NCBI GenBank assembly: GCA_028719045.1
Contig: JAQULD010000043.1
Location: 1 to 12,478, forward strand
DNA: 12,478 nucleotides
Reading direction: 5' to 3'
Origin: Candidatus Omnitrophota bacterium
GTDB taxonomy: Bacteria; Omnitrophota; Koll11; Gygaellales; Profunditerraquicolaceae
The notes under the pieces are model-generated. The model was not told the DNA's origin and made no database searches. It saw only the letters and a list, made by a program, of their open reading frames with translations. A program made the position numbers and the translations under genes. Below, piece after piece: positions 1,474-7,591 of this stretch (positions are counted from its first letter, which is position 1; each line of letters starts with the position of its first letter).

Positions 1474-2379
1474 ATGGATAATAGCGAGGAATCGAAGACA
1501 AAGATCTACGAGGAAAACGGGGAAATGTTTGACCTGGCGGAAGAAATCCGCAGGTCATCGGTTTTATTTTTGAAAAACTTTAACTCCAGGAAGGTCAAAT
1601 TAGCCAGCCTTGAGCCTCGCAAAAGGATATTCCTGTTCTTCTTGACCAAAATAATCAAGACCTATTCTGCGGTTTATGCCCTTTGCCGGGAAGGCTACGG
1701 CCAGGATGTCTGTCCTTTATTAAGGAGTTCACTTGAAACTCTTATCTCGGCAAAATACATACTTTACGACCCTGCCGCGGCGGACAAAAATGCCGCGCGT
1801 TTCGTGGAATACAAATGGGTGATCTTTAAACGTTATCTGGGAGAGTTTGAAAAAGGGCCGTTGGATAAATCGCAGGGGAAGATTTCCTCCTCGAAACAGC
1901 TGATCCTGGAGAAATTCAAGGAGTATAAGGAAAAATACGGTATTTCTTCGGACAGGGGGCTTTTGACCTGGTCGGGCAAGCCCATAAGAGATATGGCAAA
2001 GCTGGTGGATGAGAAACTTCTTGGCGAATACGAATCCGCTTTCCGCATAGATTCGCGCTTTTCCCACCCCAGCATCTTATCGGATAATGAGTACCTGGAT
2101 TATGATGACTATATTTTAAAGTTGTCTCCTTTGCCTTCTGACGCCGGGGTCGTTACCAACCTCAAAAGGGCGATTACCTACCTTATAGAATTCCTGGGTT
2201 TGTTCAATGAATTATTCGGCCTGCAATATGAAGCAAGGCTTATGGAATTACAATCCCGCGTTGACGAAGTTTTCAATATGGAAAAATACAAGAAAGAAAT
2301 TACTTTCGGAAAATCTTTCCCCAATCTTAATAAAAAAGACCTGGAAAAGGTCTTGGTCCAGTTTGACCTGCCTCTGTAA
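1474..2379 (+). CDS. DUF5677-like protein of unknown function
   Basis: A soluble protein of about 301 aa. The pattern of an early helix (FFLTKIIKTYSAVYALCREG), then QDVCPLLRSSLETLISAKYI and a conserved-looking RFVEYKWVIFKRYL, resembles DUF5677 proteins. These are helical proteins of unknown function often found in accessory regions. No signal peptide or catalytic motif is visible. The start is uncertain. The frame is open from TTG 1426, with ATGs at 1465 and 1474, and none has a convincing SD. I chose 1474 because a near-consensus promoter (1438-1466) would place the transcript start there and because the upstream residues are unlike the rest. If 1465 is right the protein has 304 aa. The gene follows the hemerythrin gene by about 50 nt, but that promoter suggests it can be expressed alone. 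Confidence 0.65.
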   Translation: MDNSEESKTKIYEENGEMFDLAEEIRRSSVLFLKNFNSRKVKLASLEPRKRIFLFFLTKIIKTYSAVYALCREGYGQDVCPLLRSSLETLISAKYILYDPAAADKNAARFVEYKWVIFKRYLGEFEKGPLDKSQGKISSSKQLILEKFKEYKEKYGISSDRGLLTWSGKPIRDMAKLVDEKLLGEYESAFRIDSRFSHPSILSDNEYLDYDDYILKLSPLPSDAGVVTNLKRAITYLIEFLGLFNELFGLQYEARLMELQSRVDEVFNMEKYKKEITFGKSFPNLNKKDLEKVLVQFDLPL

Positions 2380-2430
2380 AAAAACCGCGAGAATTCACTC
2401 TTTAAAACACCGACGATAAAACCTTACCGT

Positions 2431-2460
2431 GTCTTAGTCTGTCCTATTTTGTCCTAGTTG
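2431..2460 (+). repeat. Three tandem 10-bp direct repeats (GTCYTA core)
   Basis: GTCTTAGTCT, GTCCTATTTT and GTCCTAGTTG follow one another at 2431, 2441 and 2451. The 10-bp period equals about one helical turn, so a protein bound to each copy would sit on one face of the DNA. They lie roughly 85-115 bp upstream of the predicted start of the amyloid-like operon transcript, a typical activator zone. Confidence 0.5.
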
Positions 2461-2471
2461 TATTTTCAGGC

Positions 2472-2501
2472 AAAGTGGAAATTAATCAAAAAAAAGTGGA
2501 A
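2472..2501 (+). repeat. Pair of AAAGTGGAA direct repeats, 21 bp apart
   Basis: Exact copies of AAAGTGGAA occur at 2472-2480 and 2493-2501. The 21-bp centre spacing is two helical turns, as in many dimeric response-regulator operators. The second copy ends 8 bp before the proposed -35 at 2510, so the pair is well placed for an activator that contacts RNA polymerase. The protein that binds is unknown. Confidence 0.5.
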
Positions 2502-2509
2502 TGCTGAAA

Positions 2510-2537
2510 TTTACTTTTTATTCGTTTGGATTATTAT
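2510..2537 (+). promoter_or_regulatory. Candidate sigma-70-type promoter of the amyloid-like operon
   Basis: TTTACT (2510-2515), a 16-bp spacer and TATTAT (2532-2537) give 4/6 and 5/6 consensus matches. The imperfect -35 plus upstream direct repeats fits an activated promoter. Transcription would start near 2544, just upstream of the small ORF at 2570. The stretch 2380-2430 holds nothing recognised. Confidence 0.5.
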
Positions 2538-2569
2538 GAAACTGTAAATTAAAACACGAAAGGATGAAT

Positions 2570-2689
2570 ATGACGACAATGCCGACGGAAAAAAACAAAA
2601 CGAAAGGCAAGAATAATTTAGGAACCCTTACCGGGCAGGTTTGGGTTCTCTGTAAAAATCAGGATAAGAAAGGGGGTGTAATACTATGA
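2570..2689 (+). CDS. Possible 39-aa small protein or leader peptide, coupled to the next gene
   Basis: The start ATG at 2570 has an AAAGG SD (2559-2563) at 6-nt spacing. The frame runs to a TGA at 2687-2689 that overlaps the next start as ATGA, a classic translational-coupling arrangement. The product is Lys/Thr/Asn-rich at first (MTTMPTEKNKTKGKNN) and then LGTLTGQVWVLCKNQDKKGG. It has no signal peptide or recognised motif. An in-frame ATG at 2564 is too close to the SD. It would be the first ORF on the transcript of the predicted promoter. It might be a real small protein, a leader peptide that tunes translation of the repeat protein, or a chance ORF in a 5' untranslated region. Only the SD, position and overlap argue for it. 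Confidence 0.4.
   Translation: MTTMPTEKNKTKGKNNLGTLTGQVWVLCKNQDKKGGVIL
2621..2649 (+). promoter_or_regulatory. Symmetric RNA hairpin upstream of the first repeat-protein start
   Basis: GAACCC (2622-2627) pairs with GGGTTC (2643-2648). Inside it a symmetric TT/TT internal loop leads to ACC (2630-2632) pairing with GGT (2638-2640) around a GGGCA loop. No T-run follows, so it is not a terminator. It lies inside the small ORF and 37 nt before ATG 2686, so it could affect translation or RNA stability. Confidence 0.35.
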
Positions 2690-3651
2690 AACGTATATTC
2701 ATATTATCGCTAGTGTTATTGCTGTCAGCTTCCGGTTTAGCGTTTGCAGGTGCGAAACCTATGTCTGATAGCGCACTGGATAATGTCAGTGCAGGGGACT
2801 GGGTTGTCGTGACAGATACCAATGGCAATCAGTCAGTGGTGGATGTTTATGCAACCAACAATACCTTGGACCTCATGTCTACTTCACAAAAAGACATTAA
2901 CGCGGTCAGCAACGCCAACGCAATCGACAGCGCGATCGATGTCCAGACAAACGTGGCCAGGGTTTCCTCAGCCAATGCTCCGACCAATAACGTCGAAGTA
3001 AACGGCACCAACAGCGCAAATATCACCAATTACAGGCCAGCGGACGCAGAAAATGACACTTTCTCTGCTACCCACGAAACCTCAGCGCTCGAAAGCAGCT
3101 TCTTGAAGAATGAAAACAGCAAATCGTTCAACTTGGATTCCAGCGCATCATCGTCTTTCGCGGCGGCTTCCGCAGATGGTTCTTCAAAAGCGTTCAATCT
3201 GCTTGAGACAAACGACGTGACCGGATCCGCGGCTACTTCAAGCGCGGCTGTCGGAAAAACGATCGGCGTTTCCAGCTTAGCGGCCAATCTGCTTATCGAT
3301 TATGACAAGATCATAACCGATGAGGAAGCTTCTTCTTCCAGCAGTTCAGCGAGCGCAAGCTGCGACAAATCGCTTGATATCCAAGCTGCTGAGAATTGTG
3401 CCACCACGGCCGCTCATCTAGAGAAAGAAACTGAACTCTGCAAATTAGATACAAGCAAAACAACCCGCTCCAGCAAAGGCGTCAACAACCACATCGCTTT
3501 GCTTGAGAATTCACAGCAGAGCATCAAGGCCGTCAGCAACTTAAACGCAGTCGGCGCAGGTGCTGCCGTTCAGACAAACATAGCTTCTAACGTTGGCGTA
3601 AACGGATCCATCTCCCACGTTAACAGCGCGACCGTCTCGAGCGGTTTTTAA
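2686..3651 (+). CDS. Secreted repeat protein, candidate Fap-like amyloid subunit 1
   Basis: The protein has 321 aa; ATG 2686 follows a strong AGGGGG SD (2671-2676). Residues 1-21 form a signal peptide cleaved near AFA-GA. Next comes PMSDSALDNVSAG (25-37), which resembles a double-glycine-type leader. Two repeats bracket the protein: residues 67-91 (INAVSNANAI, VQTNVA) and 276-300 (IKAVSNLNAV, VQTNIA), identical at 14 of 25 positions. Between them is a Ser/Ala/Asn-rich linker with runs of Ser (217-222) and three Cys (226, 238, 252). The architecture of signal peptide, repeat, low-complexity linker and repeat, with alternating hydrophobic and Asn/Gln/Ser residues, matches FapB/FapC-type functional amyloids. 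The C39 and barrel genes downstream support this. The sequence is not close to Pseudomonas FapC by eye, so the family call is inferred from architecture and context. An adhesin or other surface-layer protein is the alternative. Confidence 0.6.
   Translation: MKRIFILSLVLLLSASGLAFAGAKPMSDSALDNVSAGDWVVVTDTNGNQSVVDVYATNNTLDLMSTSQKDINAVSNANAIDSAIDVQTNVARVSSANAPTNNVEVNGTNSANITNYRPADAENDTFSATHETSALESSFLKNENSKSFNLDSSASSSFAAASADGSSKAFNLLETNDVTGSAATSSAAVGKTIGVSSLAANLLIDYDKIITDEEASSSSSSASASCDKSLDIQAAENCATTAAHLEKETELCKLDTSKTTRSSKGVNNHIALLENSQQSIKAVSNLNAVGAGAAVQTNIASNVGVNGSISHVNSATVSSGF
2884..2958 (+). repeat. Protein repeat R1 of candidate amyloid subunit 1
   Basis: Encodes residues 67-91 (SQKDINAVSNANAI and onward to VQTNVA). 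It matches R2 at 3511-3585 at 14 of 25 residues, including SQ, AVSN, NA, VQTN and the final A. Confidence 0.7.
3511..3585 (+). repeat. Protein repeat R2 of candidate amyloid subunit 1
   Basis: Encodes residues 276-300 (SQQSIKAVSNLNAV and onward to VQTNIA), the C-terminal partner of R1. The tail after it (NVGVNGSISHVNSATVSSGF) resembles the segment after R1 (VEVNGTNSANITNY), so the repeat unit may extend to about 45 residues. Confidence 0.7.
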
Positions 3652-3698
3652 GCAGTTGTTTATTTGAAATTCAGGATAAGTAGTCAAAAGTTAACCAT

Positions 3699-4763
3699 AT
3701 GACAAAAAACATTTTCTTATCCAGATTTAGTACAAAGAAACCCGAACCTGTCCGGCAGGGAATCACGATATTCGTGATTTCCTGCTTTTTTCTTAATCCA
3801 TTCGTGTTTAGCTGCGGCAGCGAAGTTATGGCCGCCCAGGGGGTAGAGCTTAAAGATGAAGAGATGGATAATGTCTATGCCGAAGGGTTCACCTTCAGTT
3901 TTGACATTTCTATGCCAGACACGCAGAATATAATAAATCATGTAAATAACGCGGTTGATAGCGTCAAAGCCGCCGTAAAGAATAATTTCTCGATAATCCC
4001 TGCCGGAGGCCAGAGCGTGAATACATTAATGGTCTCCGATTATTCGCAGCAATTCCTGTCTTCTCTTGTCAATATAAACGCCGCGGGTAGTTCTGTCCCG
4101 GTAATGCTTAATTTATCCGTAAACGTTAATTCGAAAATAGAGAATATTATCAATAGCAATTTAATGAATGTGGCCAACTATTATAATTACAATTATAATG
4201 CTTTGCCTGCCGCGGTCCAGCCTCAAACTATTACACCCGCGGTTTCAGCCGTAAATCCTGCACCTGAGGCGGTTATCAATACTGTCCAGCCGGTTTTAAA
4301 TCAACCTGTTGTTATTGAACCCGCTGTGGTCGCTCCGGCAGTTCCGGTTGTGGATCAGGTTTCTTCTCAGCCGGCCGTAACAGTTAATGCCGGCAATCCC
4401 GCAGTAAATGTACCTTCCAGCGCGGATATTATAAATAATGCCAATAATATAATTAATAATGTGCAGTCGAATATAAACGCCGCTCAAAATGACGCTCAAA
4501 CGACGCCGCAAACCGGCGCAGTAACTCCTGTTACTACGCCTTCCGTTCAGACTACCGCGGTGGGAAATCTTGGCGGGGCGAATACGGTGGTAATAGGAAA
4601 TAATTCTCAGCAATATCTTTCTTCGCTGGTAAACGTAAATGCCGCGGGAAGCATCGTCCCGGTGCTCCTTAATTTAGTGATCAACATAAATTCAAGCGTA
4701 AATAAAGTCTCAAACAGCAATAATCTGGATTTCTCAACTTATTCCCGTTTCCAACTAAAATAA
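3699..4763 (+). CDS. Secreted repeat protein, candidate Fap-like amyloid subunit 2
   Basis: The protein has 354 aa. Start ATG 3699 has no strong SD, but a TCAGGATAAG element 18 nt upstream matches one before the previous gene. The N-terminus has a long basic region (residues 1-20) and a hydrophobic core (21-38), with likely cleavage at MAA-Q (46/47). LKDEEMDNVYAEG (51-63) follows, close in pattern to the leader-like motif of subunit 1. Two strong repeats, residues 116-154 and 303-341 (SQQ[FY]LSSLVN[IV]NAAGS, then VPV.LNL), agree at 26 of 39 positions. They are joined by a Pro/Val/Ala-rich linker (about 167-290) holding an Asn-rich stretch (IINNANNIINNVQSNINAAQ). It lies 47 nt after subunit 1 and 9 nt before the C39 gene. 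One subunit may nucleate and the other form the fibre, as with FapB and FapC; which is which cannot be told. Confidence 0.6.
   Translation: MTKNIFLSRFSTKKPEPVRQGITIFVISCFFLNPFVFSCGSEVMAAQGVELKDEEMDNVYAEGFTFSFDISMPDTQNIINHVNNAVDSVKAAVKNNFSIIPAGGQSVNTLMVSDYSQQFLSSLVNINAAGSSVPVMLNLSVNVNSKIENIINSNLMNVANYYNYNYNALPAAVQPQTITPAVSAVNPAPEAVINTVQPVLNQPVVIEPAVVAPAVPVVDQVSSQPAVTVNAGNPAVNVPSSADIINNANNIINNVQSNINAAQNDAQTTPQTGAVTPVTTPSVQTTAVGNLGGANTVVIGNNSQQYLSSLVNVNAAGSIVPVLLNLVININSSVNKVSNSNNLDFSTYSRFQLK
4044..4160 (+). repeat. Protein repeat R1 of candidate amyloid subunit 2
   Basis: Encodes residues 116-154, beginning SQQFLSSLVNINAAGS. It is identical to R2 at 26 of 39 positions. The alternation of Val/Ile/Leu with Asn/Ser would suit beta-strand stacking. 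Confidence 0.75.
4605..4721 (+). repeat. Protein repeat R2 of candidate amyloid subunit 2
   Basis: Encodes residues 303-341, beginning SQQYLSSLVNVNAAGS. Most differences from R1 are conservative hydrophobic exchanges (F/Y, I/V, M/L), which points to selection on the beta-prone pattern. Confidence 0.75.
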
Positions 4764-4772
4764 ACCGTAAAA

Positions 4773-5480
4773 ATGTCTTTAACGCTTTTGAAACCGGCAA
4801 TAGTGTCTGTTTTTCTCGCTGTAATTTTCTTAGGCGGGGATTCTTTCGCTATGGACATTGCTACCAGAGAAGTGGTCCTGCGTAAGAAGGTGAAGAGCAT
4901 AAGAGAGCTCAGGGACCAGAACGTGGTAAAACAATCCACCGATTACAGCTGCGGGGCGGCGGGGTTGGCGACCATACTCAACTATCATTTTAATGATCCG
5001 ATCAGTGAAAATGAAATAATATTGGGAATTTTGCGTACAACCAACCTGGCAAAGGTAAAGCAAAGAAAAGGCTTTTCTTTGCTGGATTTGAAGAAATTTG
5101 TGGAATCAAGGGGTTATAAGGTAACCGGCTATAAAATGGATATAGACTTTTTACGTAAGCTCGATATCCCTGTGCTCGTCCCGATAAAATTTAAAGAGTA
5201 CCGCCATTTTATAATCGTAAAGGCGGTAGTGGGGGATAGGGTTTTTGTCGCTGACCCCTCAATGGGTAATATGAGCATGAAAATAAACTGCTTTAACGGC
5301 ATATGGCAGGACGGGGTAGGCATGGTTATAGAACGGAAAGGGGAAAAAGATCCTTTCTTAAGCCGGATGTCATCCCTAAGGCTGAAAAAAGAAGACCTTA
5401 AGGTTGTGGATATGGAGAGCGTGGAGAGGAATCTGGAAAGCGAAGTGATCCGCACGGCCATCCATGTAGGAGAATTCTAA
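4773..5480 (+). CDS. Secreted C39-family cysteine peptidase (FapD-like)
   Basis: The protein has 235 aa. Residues 1-26 form a signal peptide ending DSFA, so the enzyme should act in the periplasm. The C39 fold is clear: oxyanion Gln54 and catalytic Cys60 in KQSTDYSCGAAGLATIL, a GFSLLDLKKFVESRGY segment typical of C39 domains, catalytic His145 in YRHFIIV and Asp161 in VFVADPSMGN. All catalytic positions are present, so it should be active. It is not fused to ABC transporter domains, unlike bacteriocin-export C39 peptidases. A free-standing secreted C39 protein next to repeat subunits and a barrel is the Fap pattern (FapD). Likely substrates are the two preceding proteins with their D-x-x-[LM]-D-N-V motifs; this is inferred. 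The C-terminal 45 residues are charged and extend past the usual domain. The gene starts 9 nt after subunit 2 with a weak SD, suggesting coupling. Confidence 0.85.
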   Translation: MSLTLLKPAIVSVFLAVIFLGGDSFAMDIATREVVLRKKVKSIRELRDQNVVKQSTDYSCGAAGLATILNYHFNDPISENEIILGILRTTNLAKVKQRKGFSLLDLKKFVESRGYKVTGYKMDIDFLRKLDIPVLVPIKFKEYRHFIIVKAVVGDRVFVADPSMGNMSMKINCFNGIWQDGVGMVIERKGEKDPFLSRMSSLRLKKEDLKVVDMESVERNLESEVIRTAIHVGEF

Positions 5481-5501
5481 GAAAGGAGCCGGATTAGCCC
5501 A

Positions 5502-6764
5502 ATGATTATCATTTCTAATAAACATTTCTTCGCGTTGGTTTTTTGTTTCGTGGTTTCGCTTGCCGCGGTTTTATTCGCATTTAAAGAATACATAACAAAA
5601 GAATATGATAGAAAGTTCAAGGAAAAGATCTTAAGCGAATTGCGCCGGGAAGTAAAACAGATGGTCAAAAGCGAGTTGAATAACACTTATGCCGCGGTAT
5701 CAACTCCGGACCGGGGCAGGCCTGATAAAGATGTCATGCTGACATTGAACCGGAAAGTGAGGGAAATGGTAAACCTCGAACTGGAATCTTACCGGGCGGG
5801 GGATATGGAGCCTGAAACGGCCACGCCGGCAGGCCCGAAAAAGAAATCTGAGCAGCCGGTCCAAGAAGGCCCGGCCGCAGGAAAGGCCGGGGATGATTCC
5901 AAAGAAGGCATAACCAAGCAGAACGCTATCGAAAGGACCCTGGTTGAAAGAGGAGGCATGCTGCTTCCCAAGGGCACGCTGCAGATAGAGCCTGGTTTTA
6001 CATCCGCGCATTTTTCCTCCAATAATATCAATATAGAAGGATTTGCCATCATACCTCTTTTTATCGGAGAAGTGACCACCCAGACTAAAAAACGGGATAT
6101 CTTTATCAGTACCTTATCCACGAAGTACGGTTTACTGGAGAATTTACAGGGTGAATTGAGAGTGCCTTACCGCTATGAATATGACAGAACCACCGATAAT
6201 ACCCAGGGCACGGAGACTTCGTTAAAAAAAGGAGGGTTGGGCGATATAGAATTATCTTTAAGCCGCCAGATAGCCTTTGAACACGGATTGGTCCCTGATA
6301 CGGTGTTTTCTATCACCGGCAAATCCATTACCGGGCAGGATCCTTACAACCACCCGATCGGCTTGGGAACCGGGCATTGGGGCGTAAGAACCGGGCTTGT
6401 ATTCGTGAAATCGAGCGACCCCGCGGTTATTTTCGGCGGATTGAATTATTCCTGGAGCGCCAGAAGGAAATTCGACAATTTCGGCAAAGTTGAGCCCGGT
6501 TCAAGCGTAGGCTATACCTTGGGAGCGGCTATTGCTTTAAGTTATCAGACCGCGATAAATTTCGCGTTCGACCACAGCGTTACCTTCAAGATGAAAAAGG
6601 ACGGCGTCAATGTAAACGGCTCTTTTCTTAATTCCGCCAGCCTAAAAACCGGTTTCAACTGGTCATTTTCCAAAAACGCGTCCGTAGATTTTTCCATAAG
6701 CCACGGATTAACCACGGATGCCCCGGATTATGTGGTGGAATTAAGGTTCCCGTATACGTTTTAA
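5502..6764 (+). CDS. Outer-membrane beta-barrel transporter with N-terminal coiled coil (FapF-like)
   Basis: The protein has 420 aa. Residues 7-27 are a hydrophobic signal or anchor. Residues 30-62 and 78-98 are highly charged heptad-like helices (KEYDRKFKEKILSELRREV), which could form a trimeric coiled coil. A Pro/Gly/Lys linker (about 100-137) and a possible plug helix (139-150) precede the barrel. From residue 156 the sequence alternates as in beta-barrels, with the Phenol_MetA_deg/transporter-like GGLGDIELSLS (244-254), and ends in FPYTF, a C-terminal aromatic BAM-recognition signal. Coiled coil, plug and barrel is the known FapF layout, the pore that exports Fap amyloid subunits. A general outer-membrane transporter of the same Pfam family is the alternative, but the operon favours FapF. 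The SD AAAGGAG (5482-5488) is 13 nt from ATG 5502, longer than usual. Confidence 0.75.
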   Translation: MIIISNKHFFALVFCFVVSLAAVLFAFKEYITKEYDRKFKEKILSELRREVKQMVKSELNNTYAAVSTPDRGRPDKDVMLTLNRKVREMVNLELESYRAGDMEPETATPAGPKKKSEQPVQEGPAAGKAGDDSKEGITKQNAIERTLVERGGMLLPKGTLQIEPGFTSAHFSSNNINIEGFAIIPLFIGEVTTQTKKRDIFISTLSTKYGLLENLQGELRVPYRYEYDRTTDNTQGTETSLKKGGLGDIELSLSRQIAFEHGLVPDTVFSITGKSITGQDPYNHPIGLGTGHWGVRTGLVFVKSSDPAVIFGGLNYSWSARRKFDNFGKVEPGSSVGYTLGAAIALSYQTAINFAFDHSVTFKMKKDGVNVNGSFLNSASLKTGFNWSFSKNASVDFSISHGLTTDAPDYVVELRFPYTF

Positions 6765-6768
6765 AATA

Positions 6769-6797
6769 TTGAAAACCGCCCGGAGATATTATATAAT
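6769..6797 (+). promoter_or_regulatory. Strong candidate promoter for the ZIP gene
   Basis: TTGAAA (6769-6774), 17 bp, TATAAT (6792-6797). This near-consensus sigma-70 promoter begins 5 nt after the FapF-like stop codon. Transcription would start near 6804, inside the left arm of the terminator hairpin at 6800-6835. Confidence 0.6.
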
Positions 6798-6799
6798 GT

Positions 6800-6835
6800 A
6801 CGCAACTTACCGTACGGAAAGTTGCGTCTTTTTTT
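6800..6835 (+). terminator. Intrinsic terminator of the amyloid-like operon
   Basis: ACGCAACTT (6800-6808) and AAGTTGCGT (6819-6827) pair perfectly over 9 bp, followed by C and seven T (6829-6835). The hairpin overlaps the start region of the promoter at 6769-6797, so a transcript begun at about 6804 lacks part of the left arm and may escape termination, while read-through from the operon stops. Confidence 0.85.
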
Positions 6836-6853
6836 GCCAAACCGATATTGATT

Positions 6854-7591
6854 ATGAACCTATTATACGCGTTTCTTGCCAGCATTGCCGTCAGCCTCAT
6901 ATCTTTAGTCGGGGCATTTGCCCTGATGCTTAATGATAAGGCGCTTAAGAAGATCCTTATCTTCCTGGTCGCTTTTGCGGCCGGAGGGTTGATTGGAGGG
7001 GCGTTTTTACATATTTTGCCCGAGGCAGGGGAGTATGTAAAAGACAGTACCCGGCTCTACCTTTTTGTTATCATCGGTTTTTTGCTTTTTTTTATCCTGG
7101 AAAAATACCTCTATTGGCGCCACTGCCATAATTTCAAATGAGAAATACATATGTTCACTTATCTTAATATTATGGGCGATATTATCCACAATTTCAGCGA
7201 TGGCCTGATCATGGGCGCCATTTTCATGGTGGATATCAGAATAGGTTTAGTGACCACGCTTGCTATTATTTTCCATGAGATCCCGCATGAACTGGGTAAT
7301 TTTATGGTCCTGATATACGGCGGTTTTAATAAATTTAAAGCTTTGTTCTTCAATTTTCTGTCTTCTCTGTTCGCGATAGCGGGTACCGGGTTCGGCTATT
7401 ATTTCGCGGACAAAATCGGCGGTTTTTCAGCGGTGCTGCTGCCCGCCGCGGCGGGGGGCTTCATTTATATCGCTGCCTGCGATTTGATCCCCGAACTGCA
7501 TAAAGAAGGAGGGGCAGTAAAACAGGGGCTTACGATGGTCTTTTTTGTTTTGGGCATTGTCCTTATGTATTTGTTAAAGGTATTATCTTAG
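6854..7591 (+). CDS. ZIP-family metal transporter with in-frame TGA at codon 96 (selenocysteine candidate or nonsense mutation)
   Basis: ZIP proteins import Zn2+, Fe2+ or related divalent metals. Taken across the TGA at 7139-7141, this frame encodes about 245 aa, a normal bacterial ZIP length. Residues before the TGA hold AFLHILPEA (H53, E57) and WRHCH (88-92). After it come HNFSDG and HEIPHELG, the two metal-site helices, then AGGFIYIAACDLIPELHKE, all typical of the family. Both halves are in the same frame with only three codons (Glu-Ile-His) between the TGA and ATG 7151. Standard gene calling would give two genes, 6854-7141 and 7151-7591. Each alone would lack half of the metal path. I recall related ZIPs having a Cys near this place, so selenocysteine is possible, but a nonsense mutation or base error is equally open. 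The start ATG 6854 (a TTG lies at 6848) has no clear SD. Confidence 0.7.

Follow-up and report, generated by a model that had tools for sequence, protein, structure and literature searches.

The Fap amyloid system of Pseudomonas (fapABCDEF) brings together, within a single operon, a FapF-type barrel, an exported C39 peptidase (FapD) and, upstream, two repeat-and-linker subunits; the latter, FapB and FapC, being laid out as paired, imperfect, Asn/Gln-rich repeats around variable linkers (PMC3792158, PMC12392863). FapD works in the periplasm, and secretion depends on its catalytic Cys; the same report calls its target unclear and states that canonical C39 sequences are missing from the Fap proteins (PMC5557850). 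Both the linker of FapF and the N-terminus of FapE look processed, and are suspected FapD targets (PMC5557850, PMC12822426). Here, we describe an operon related to this one: four co-directional genes at 2686-6764 (from the list of open reading frames, ORFs) on the forward strand of a 12,478-nucleotide stretch of contig JAQULD010000043.1, apparently the contig in full and referred to throughout as ‘the window’. Its host is an uncultured bacterium belonging to Omnitrophota, a phylum with few cultured members. On balance, we believe that the operon probably specifies a Fap-type fibre secretion system, in which the peptidase matures leader-bearing subunits not recognisable as Fap and also cuts the linker of the FapF homologue. 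The leader-like segment, found on both subunit families and in the FapF linker, had been missed by an earlier, sequence-only reading of this DNA and is added by our analysis.

Moving along the operon from its 5' end, with all features on the forward strand, subunit 1 (2686..3651, 321 amino acids) consists of a Sec signal, a leader and two repeats flanking a Ser/Ala-rich linker, and subunit 2 (3699..4763, 354 amino acids) of a signal peptide with a long n-region, a leader and two repeats either side of a Pro/Val/Asn/Gln linker. There follow a FapD/FilB-like C39 peptidase with an N-terminal hydrophobic signal (4773..5480), and a FapF-like outer-membrane barrel protein (5502..6764), comprising an N-terminal hydrophobic segment, a helical coiled-coil-like region, a linker and the barrel itself; the coiled coil being predicted from a charged, helix-like segment together with homology. 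The sequence-only reading had recognised this run of two signal-peptide repeat proteins, peptidase and barrel, and the ORFs, repeats, catalytic residues and barrel matches all confirm it. The stretch it assigned to the system, 2570..6764, opens ahead of the first start codon, which lies at 2686 and is backed by full-length relatives of subunit 1; the protein database entry for this contig's subunit 1 is a 258-residue piece, covering 80% of the protein.

The proposed kinship of the peptidase and barrel with FapD and FapF is borne out by profile searches. The peptidase matches the FapD model NF058616 at 7.9e-39 (133.2 bits; NCBI equivalog cut-off 330) and Peptidase_C39 at 1.6e-21, its best NCBIfam match being to FilB (NF050078; 4.7e-40, below the curated cut-off); and the C39 catalytic residues Gln54, Cys60, His145 and Asp161 are all in place, as previously read. 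The barrel matches the FapF model NF058560 at 1.1e-36 (126.6 bits; NCBI equivalog cut-off 700) and, over residues 152-420, the FapF sequence of crystal structure PDB 5o65 at 9.1e-23, with matches to the FilC model at only 2.8e-11 and to Phenol_MetA_deg at 3.7e-8. As the matches to the NCBI models all fall below the equivalog cut-offs, we treat the peptidase and barrel as homologues, rather than certified equivalogs, of the Fap proteins.

Turning to the subunits, the paired repeats described for both are real. In subunit 1, repeat 1 (residues ~58-110, 2857..3015) aligns with repeat 2 (residues ~267-321, 3484..3648) at 99% in an HHalign profile-profile comparison (E 1e-17; reversed control 2%). 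Judged by the same method, repeat 2 is also related to the C-terminal repeat of subunit 2 (87%, E 4e-6), to which repeat 1 aligns at only 22% (E 1e-3). The pair in subunit 2 (residues 106-160, 4014..4178; residues 293-348, 4575..4742) is evident from direct reading, the pattern ‘SQQ-LSSLVN-NAAGS-VPV-LNL’ being present twice, with the second copy forming a C-terminal block conserved across the family of 28 (alignment A2, 28 rows; 27 database relatives besides subunit 2 itself). Subunit 1 has 57 database relatives besides its own entry, at 33-66% identity over the aligned part, from which a 41-row alignment (A3) was taken.

None of the FapB, FapC and FapE models in the NCBIfam library match either window subunit, nor any of the 41 subunit-1 or 28 subunit-2 rows, whereas the same library identifies Aeromonas FapC (1e-50), FapB (8e-22) and FapE (2e-12) as positive controls; likewise, the FapC model matches none of 11 draft genomes bearing the locus or part of it, with the Aeromonas record matched as control. 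The earlier impression that the subunits are unlike FapB/C therefore holds and, taken together with the FapF/FapD homology, leaves us with a Fap-type exporter and with fibre proteins that cannot be recognised as Fap. One could suppose them to be true orthologues of FapB and FapC that have diverged past sequence recognition: there are two of them upstream of FapD, as in fapBCDEF, they share the repeat layout, and a loose N-x-A-x-G...Q-x-N likeness can be made out by eye. Set against this, in addition to the silence of the models, HHalign gives at most 1.3% for subunit repeats versus canonical Fap repeats, with reversed controls reaching 9.6% (the canonical set being five Aeromonas repeats), and searches with the subunit profiles, run to E 10, do not reach solved FapC, a target found by Aeromonas FapC at 1e-10. 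Orthology of this kind strikes us as unlikely. As for canonical FapC as the ancestor of the subunits, the idea is unsupported by models, profiles and HHalign, the last with its thin set of five Aeromonas repeats.

What, then, would such an exporter deliver? By analogy only, the subunits are likely to form amyloid. The competing view is that the same peptidase and barrel serve some other surface polymer or adhesin, resembling the Fil putative pilus of Acinetobacter (FilA, FilB, FilC). The peptidase, after all, matches FilB as well as it does FapD, and the subunits are without a FapB/FapC model match. Acinetobacter FilA, encoded beside FilB (L029 5472-6341), moreover has a start that looks leader-like by eye (MDDAALSAATGQDG after the signal). 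Saying this, the barrel is far nearer to FapF than to FilC, the FilA model misses our subunits, and paired Asn/Gln-rich repeats with variable linkers are precisely the layout reported for FapB/FapC. We would give a non-amyloid product a minority share of our belief.

Both subunit families bear, directly behind the Sec signal, a segment of 12 residues, LSDx(E/A)(M/L)DxVxAG. In subunit 1 this occupies residues 26-37 (MSDSALDNVSAG; 2761..2796), with a putative cut after Gly37; in all 41 rows of its alignment, position -12 is L/M/I, -7 is M or L, -4 is V or I, and -2/-1 are an invariant Ala-Gly (Ala36 and Gly37 in the window). The published rule for C39 recognition calls for Leu-12, Glu-8, Leu-7, a hydrophobic residue at -4 and small residues at P2-P1, with 13 leader residues sufficing (PMC6363468); as far as its sequence goes, the subunit-1 segment fits a double-glycine leader of this kind save for Glu-8, the residue at this position being Glu in 15 rows, Ala in 14, Gln in six, Asp in five and Thr in one (Ala in the window). 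Its score of 29.1 is clear but not independent, as its own family trained the matrix. The same subunit-1-trained matrix gives a moderate 7.8 for the leader of subunit 2 (residues 51-62, LKDEEMDNVYAE, then Gly63; 3849..3884), in which hydrophobic -12, -7 and -4 are retained, and places 23 of the 28 subunit-2 proteins above the 99% shuffle level, seven of them above 99.9%; at three loci (L002, L005, L006) the leader of subunit 2 ends in AG-G.

Across the genomes searched, the motif scarcely occurs outside this locus. Just 17 of 380 open frames in eight loci score at least 5, and 16 of these are proteins of these operons; similarly, the matches of a signal-plus-leader profile (alignment A4, 25 rows) at E < 1e-5 all fall at these loci, being present in 10 of the 11 locus genomes and in none of 20 others. 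The former figure is partly circular, because 16 of the 25 rows came from those very genomes; the absence from the 20 others is not affected. From Sec site to predicted cut, the propeptide would measure 12–17 residues (median 14), a crude estimate that uses the signal-peptidase-like triplet nearest to the motif on its N-terminal side, and thus leans short; it covers 54 of the 57 subunit-1 proteins and all 28 subunit-2 proteins, three of which are without a clear motif. A similarly crude test detects a signal-peptidase-like site in 57/57 subunit-1 proteins, and missed that of subunit 2 in the window. To us, a tag on the fibre proteins, of the kind that the C39 family cuts, suggests a target for the protease next door.

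Three further observations concern the leader and its surroundings. The long n-region of subunit 2 (3699-3810) contains a P-V-(W/R)-(Q/K) core that is repeated in many relatives (alignment A2), and is reminiscent of extended signal peptides. One draft genome (G033) holds, on contig C20, an unlinked 173-residue frame with a Sec-like signal, a leader and the same repeats (L083 965-1486; E 5.8e-5), possibly an extra substrate encoded away from the operon. On contig C3 of the same genome, a leader and one repeat are joined to a C39 domain in one frame, at a shared short stretch (L033 4721-5671); this may be a copy that has collapsed, or else a genuine fusion.

A leader-like segment is also found in the linker of the FapF homologue (residues 89-100, MVNLELESYRAG; 5766..5801), recognised with an anchor-residue pattern chosen afterwards and forming a candidate second site for the FapD homologue. 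It lies 50 residues before the barrel start, inside the usual range for the family. We scored the N-terminal parts of 91 out of 106 FapF relatives, leaving aside 12 without a recognisable GGMLL-type start and three with fewer than 40 residues before it; the split FapF of G033 and a FapF fragment in G139 also lie outside these counts. With the subunit-1 matrix, 31/91 N-terminal parts exceed the 99% shuffle level and 19/91 the 99.9% level, versus 1/94 and 0/94 for the barrels; amongst the 31, 25 segments fall 40–75 residues before the barrel and six away from the usual place. The pattern, picked after viewing the sequences, occurs in 46/91 N-terminal parts, with a median distance of 61 residues to the start of the barrel, and in 0/91 barrels, whereas 200 shuffles averaged 0.41 and gave three at most; split by database label, it is present in 44/69 relatives without, versus 2/18 with, a fibronectin-like domain.

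In some relatives this fibronectin-like domain (PF16656; 1e-10 to 7e-9) sits before the barrel and replaces the coiled coil (L008 7464-8957, L032 12454-13404, L079 882-2369), with the last of the three retaining a leader-like linker segment. By a crude test applied to FapF relatives P0029-P0119, an AxA-type Sec site follows the hydrophobic segment in 30/70 proteins without the PF16656 label and 14/19 with it. As such a site is seen in only 30 of those 70, it is conceivable that an uncleaved N-terminal segment holds some FapF proteins in the inner membrane until they are cut.

We also looked at Fap-like operons of Proteobacteria, fetching eight regions and setting aside those of Indioceanicola (FapF with no nearby peptidase) and Acinetobacter (the Fil system). 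In each of the six remaining, the FapE-position protein beside the peptidase shows, by eye, R-G at -3/-2 behind a hydrophobic residue at -12 and an L or M at -7; the sequence is R-G-G in five (Cupriavidus, Vibrio, Photobacterium, Croceicoccus and Polymorphobacter) and R-G-R in Aeromonas. Photobacterium FapE was taken from a frame translation, and Cupriavidus FapE starts past residue 220 within its frame. This likeness agrees with published hints of a removed FapE N-terminus, and of a FapF linker unseen by mass spectrometry (PMC5557850). The FapE N-terminus and the periplasmic region of FapF had already been suggested as possible FapD targets (PMC5557850, PMC12822426); what is new here is the leader on the subunits. 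More tentatively, and we think with the odds against it, Fap-type systems might in general share a C39 leader code, borne by the Omnitrophota fibre proteins and FapF linker and by the FapE-position proteins of Proteobacteria; in Omnitrophota, FapF may then be tethered to the inner membrane by an uncleaved N-terminal helix until FapD cuts its linker, with the same protease maturing a new family of amyloid subunits. If true, one protease would license both pore and cargo.

In our proposed mechanism, the two repeat proteins would cross the inner membrane by Sec, after which signal peptidase would bare a propeptide of ~14 residues ending in the C39-type leader L-S-D-x-E/A-M/L-D-x-V-x-A-G. The periplasmic FapD-like peptidase would then ‘grip’ the leader through its hydrophobic -12, -7 and -4 residues and cut past the small residue. 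Mature subunits would leave through the FapF-like barrel and assemble outside as a surface fibre, presumably amyloid. The peptidase would, in addition, cut FapF at the related site between coiled coil and barrel, so as to open or reset the pore.

Several observations weigh against this proposal. P1 is Glu in subunit 2 of the window, and Glu or Gln in its scored relatives (AE-G, AQ-G), not Gly. The FapF segment of the window scores -5.0 with the subunit-1 matrix, which is background, such that the claim of a leader in FapF rests on the family; here the pattern counts carry the handicap of a pattern chosen with the sequences in view, and that pattern is absent from 45/91 N-terminal parts, including 16 of the 18 with the fibronectin-like domain. 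A formal version of the leader pattern, covering the first 220 residues, hits 6/24 Proteobacterial proteins versus ~2.1 by shuffles—a weak test, in which the matches are three FapE-position proteins, two small proteins and one FapF. Finally, AlphaFold models of the subunits (pLDDT 62 / pTM 0.34 and 49 / 0.22) are of such low confidence that no fold, the suggested stacked beta-solenoids among them, can be judged from them; amongst the 50 matches listed by Foldseek for the subunit-1 model, mostly pore-forming proteins, the TM-score is 0.16 at most, and thus meaningless.

The Glu and Gln residues at P1 of subunit 2 would also sit comfortably with a leader that stays uncut, acting instead as a docking or export signal bound by the C39 domain or by FapF; indeed, some C39-like domains are described as working without cutting (PMC5557850). 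The catalytic residues of the peptidase are, however, intact, the Ala-Gly at P2-P1 never varies in the 41 rows of subunit 1, and FapD of Pseudomonas depends on its catalytic Cys (PMC5557850). An uncut signal consequently seems to us improbable, and maturation by cleavage the better account. With a near-canonical leader on the cargo and, in many relatives, on the pore, the question of what FapD targets therefore becomes a simple one of cleavage at named bonds.

A search with the FapF alignment recovered eight loci, seven of them in Candidatus Omnitrophota; a single FapF protein, used as query of the genome contigs, found no match. All eight have the two repeat proteins followed by C39 and then FapF, as far as the contigs extend, with one additional leader protein at L008. 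Organism-named relatives are all from Omnitrophota (two for subunit 1, two for subunit 2 and nine for the barrel). In 191 Omnitrophota genomes, the FapD model and the subunit-1 profile each find seven, with six in common; the exceptions being G127, where the operon is present with a weaker subunit-1 match cut by the contig end, and G129, where subunit 1 runs off its contig. The FapF profile matches 13 of 384 genomes. Deeper relatives, G290 and G319, have the C39 peptidase, FapF, a small leader protein and a long leaderless partner with what appears, by eye, to be an Asp/Ser-rich start. The FapF of G033 is divided over two overlapping frames (L032 12454-13982).

The Omnitrophota operon departs from that of Pseudomonas in having no FapE match, no gene in the FapE or FapA position, subunits unmatched by the FapB/FapC models and a leader-like segment on the subunits themselves. 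That it is reduced, and lacks an evident FapE, had been anticipated: the gap between peptidase and barrel is 156 bases or less at all eight loci, leaving no gene in FapE position, and the FapE model matches none of the 11 draft genomes bearing the locus or part of it (the window's own genome not being included), with the Aeromonas record (L023) matched. An Aeromonas FapE query among plasmids returned its own record only. Other than the four genes, the ORF list contains no forward-strand frame of at least 80 amino acids within 2379-6764; FapA models were not searched, and FapA is frequently missing from true Fap operons (PMC3792158). Interpretation of the locus as a reduced Fap system is thus supported in part; namely in its FapF/FapD homology, its want of a FapE and its subunits unlike FapB/C.

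Fap was at first limited to Proteobacteria (PMC3792158), since when co-located fapD and fapF homologues have been reported in five further phyla, unnamed in the text (PMC6173800); Desulfobacterota, Nitrospirota and Bacillota are likewise reported to have Fap operons (PMC12822426). The suggestion that our operon lies outside the classic setting of the system is, to that extent, already in print; the main text of PMC12822426 makes no mention of Omnitrophota, and among the papers listed by our literature searches no title or abstract opening describes a Fap-type system in Omnitrophota or a C39 leader on Fap subunits. Surveys of GTDB genomes (PMC12392863, PMC12822426) would miss a system with unrelated subunits, because they require a match to the FapB/C repeats. 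A Fap exporter that is paired with repeat proteins of another family gives a wider field in which to look for new amyloids.

Two other kinds of exporter invite comparison. The PCAT / double-glycine bacteriocin exporters (LahT, ComA, NHLP) share both the C39 fold and the hydrophobic -12 / -7 / -4 leader rule; by contrast, the Omnitrophota operon has no ABC transporter, its leader is placed behind a Sec signal and its peptidase has a signal of its own. Curli (Csg) is likewise a dedicated export system for repeat-bearing fibre subunits, but there is no Csg family among the Pfam/NCBIfam matches of the operon proteins.

Beyond the last gene, a terminator-like hairpin is followed by seven T (6800..6827, forward strand; -16.4 kcal/mol for 6775-6845). 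The ‘strong terminator’ noted previously is thus confirmed only in part: the hairpin and T run exist, with a z of -2.0, and go unlisted in a consensus terminator scan. A stronger hairpin, with 14 perfect pairs and six T (3755-3785, -21.3 kcal/mol), falls within the signal-peptide codons of subunit 2 and could end many transcripts after subunit 1; we place no weight on it, as it is not at the same place in five relatives. An Rfam search of 2300-7000 at E 0.1 returned nothing. Downstream of the operon, a ZIP metal transporter is encoded in two frames, 6848-7141 and 7151-7591, which match different parts of the Zip model.

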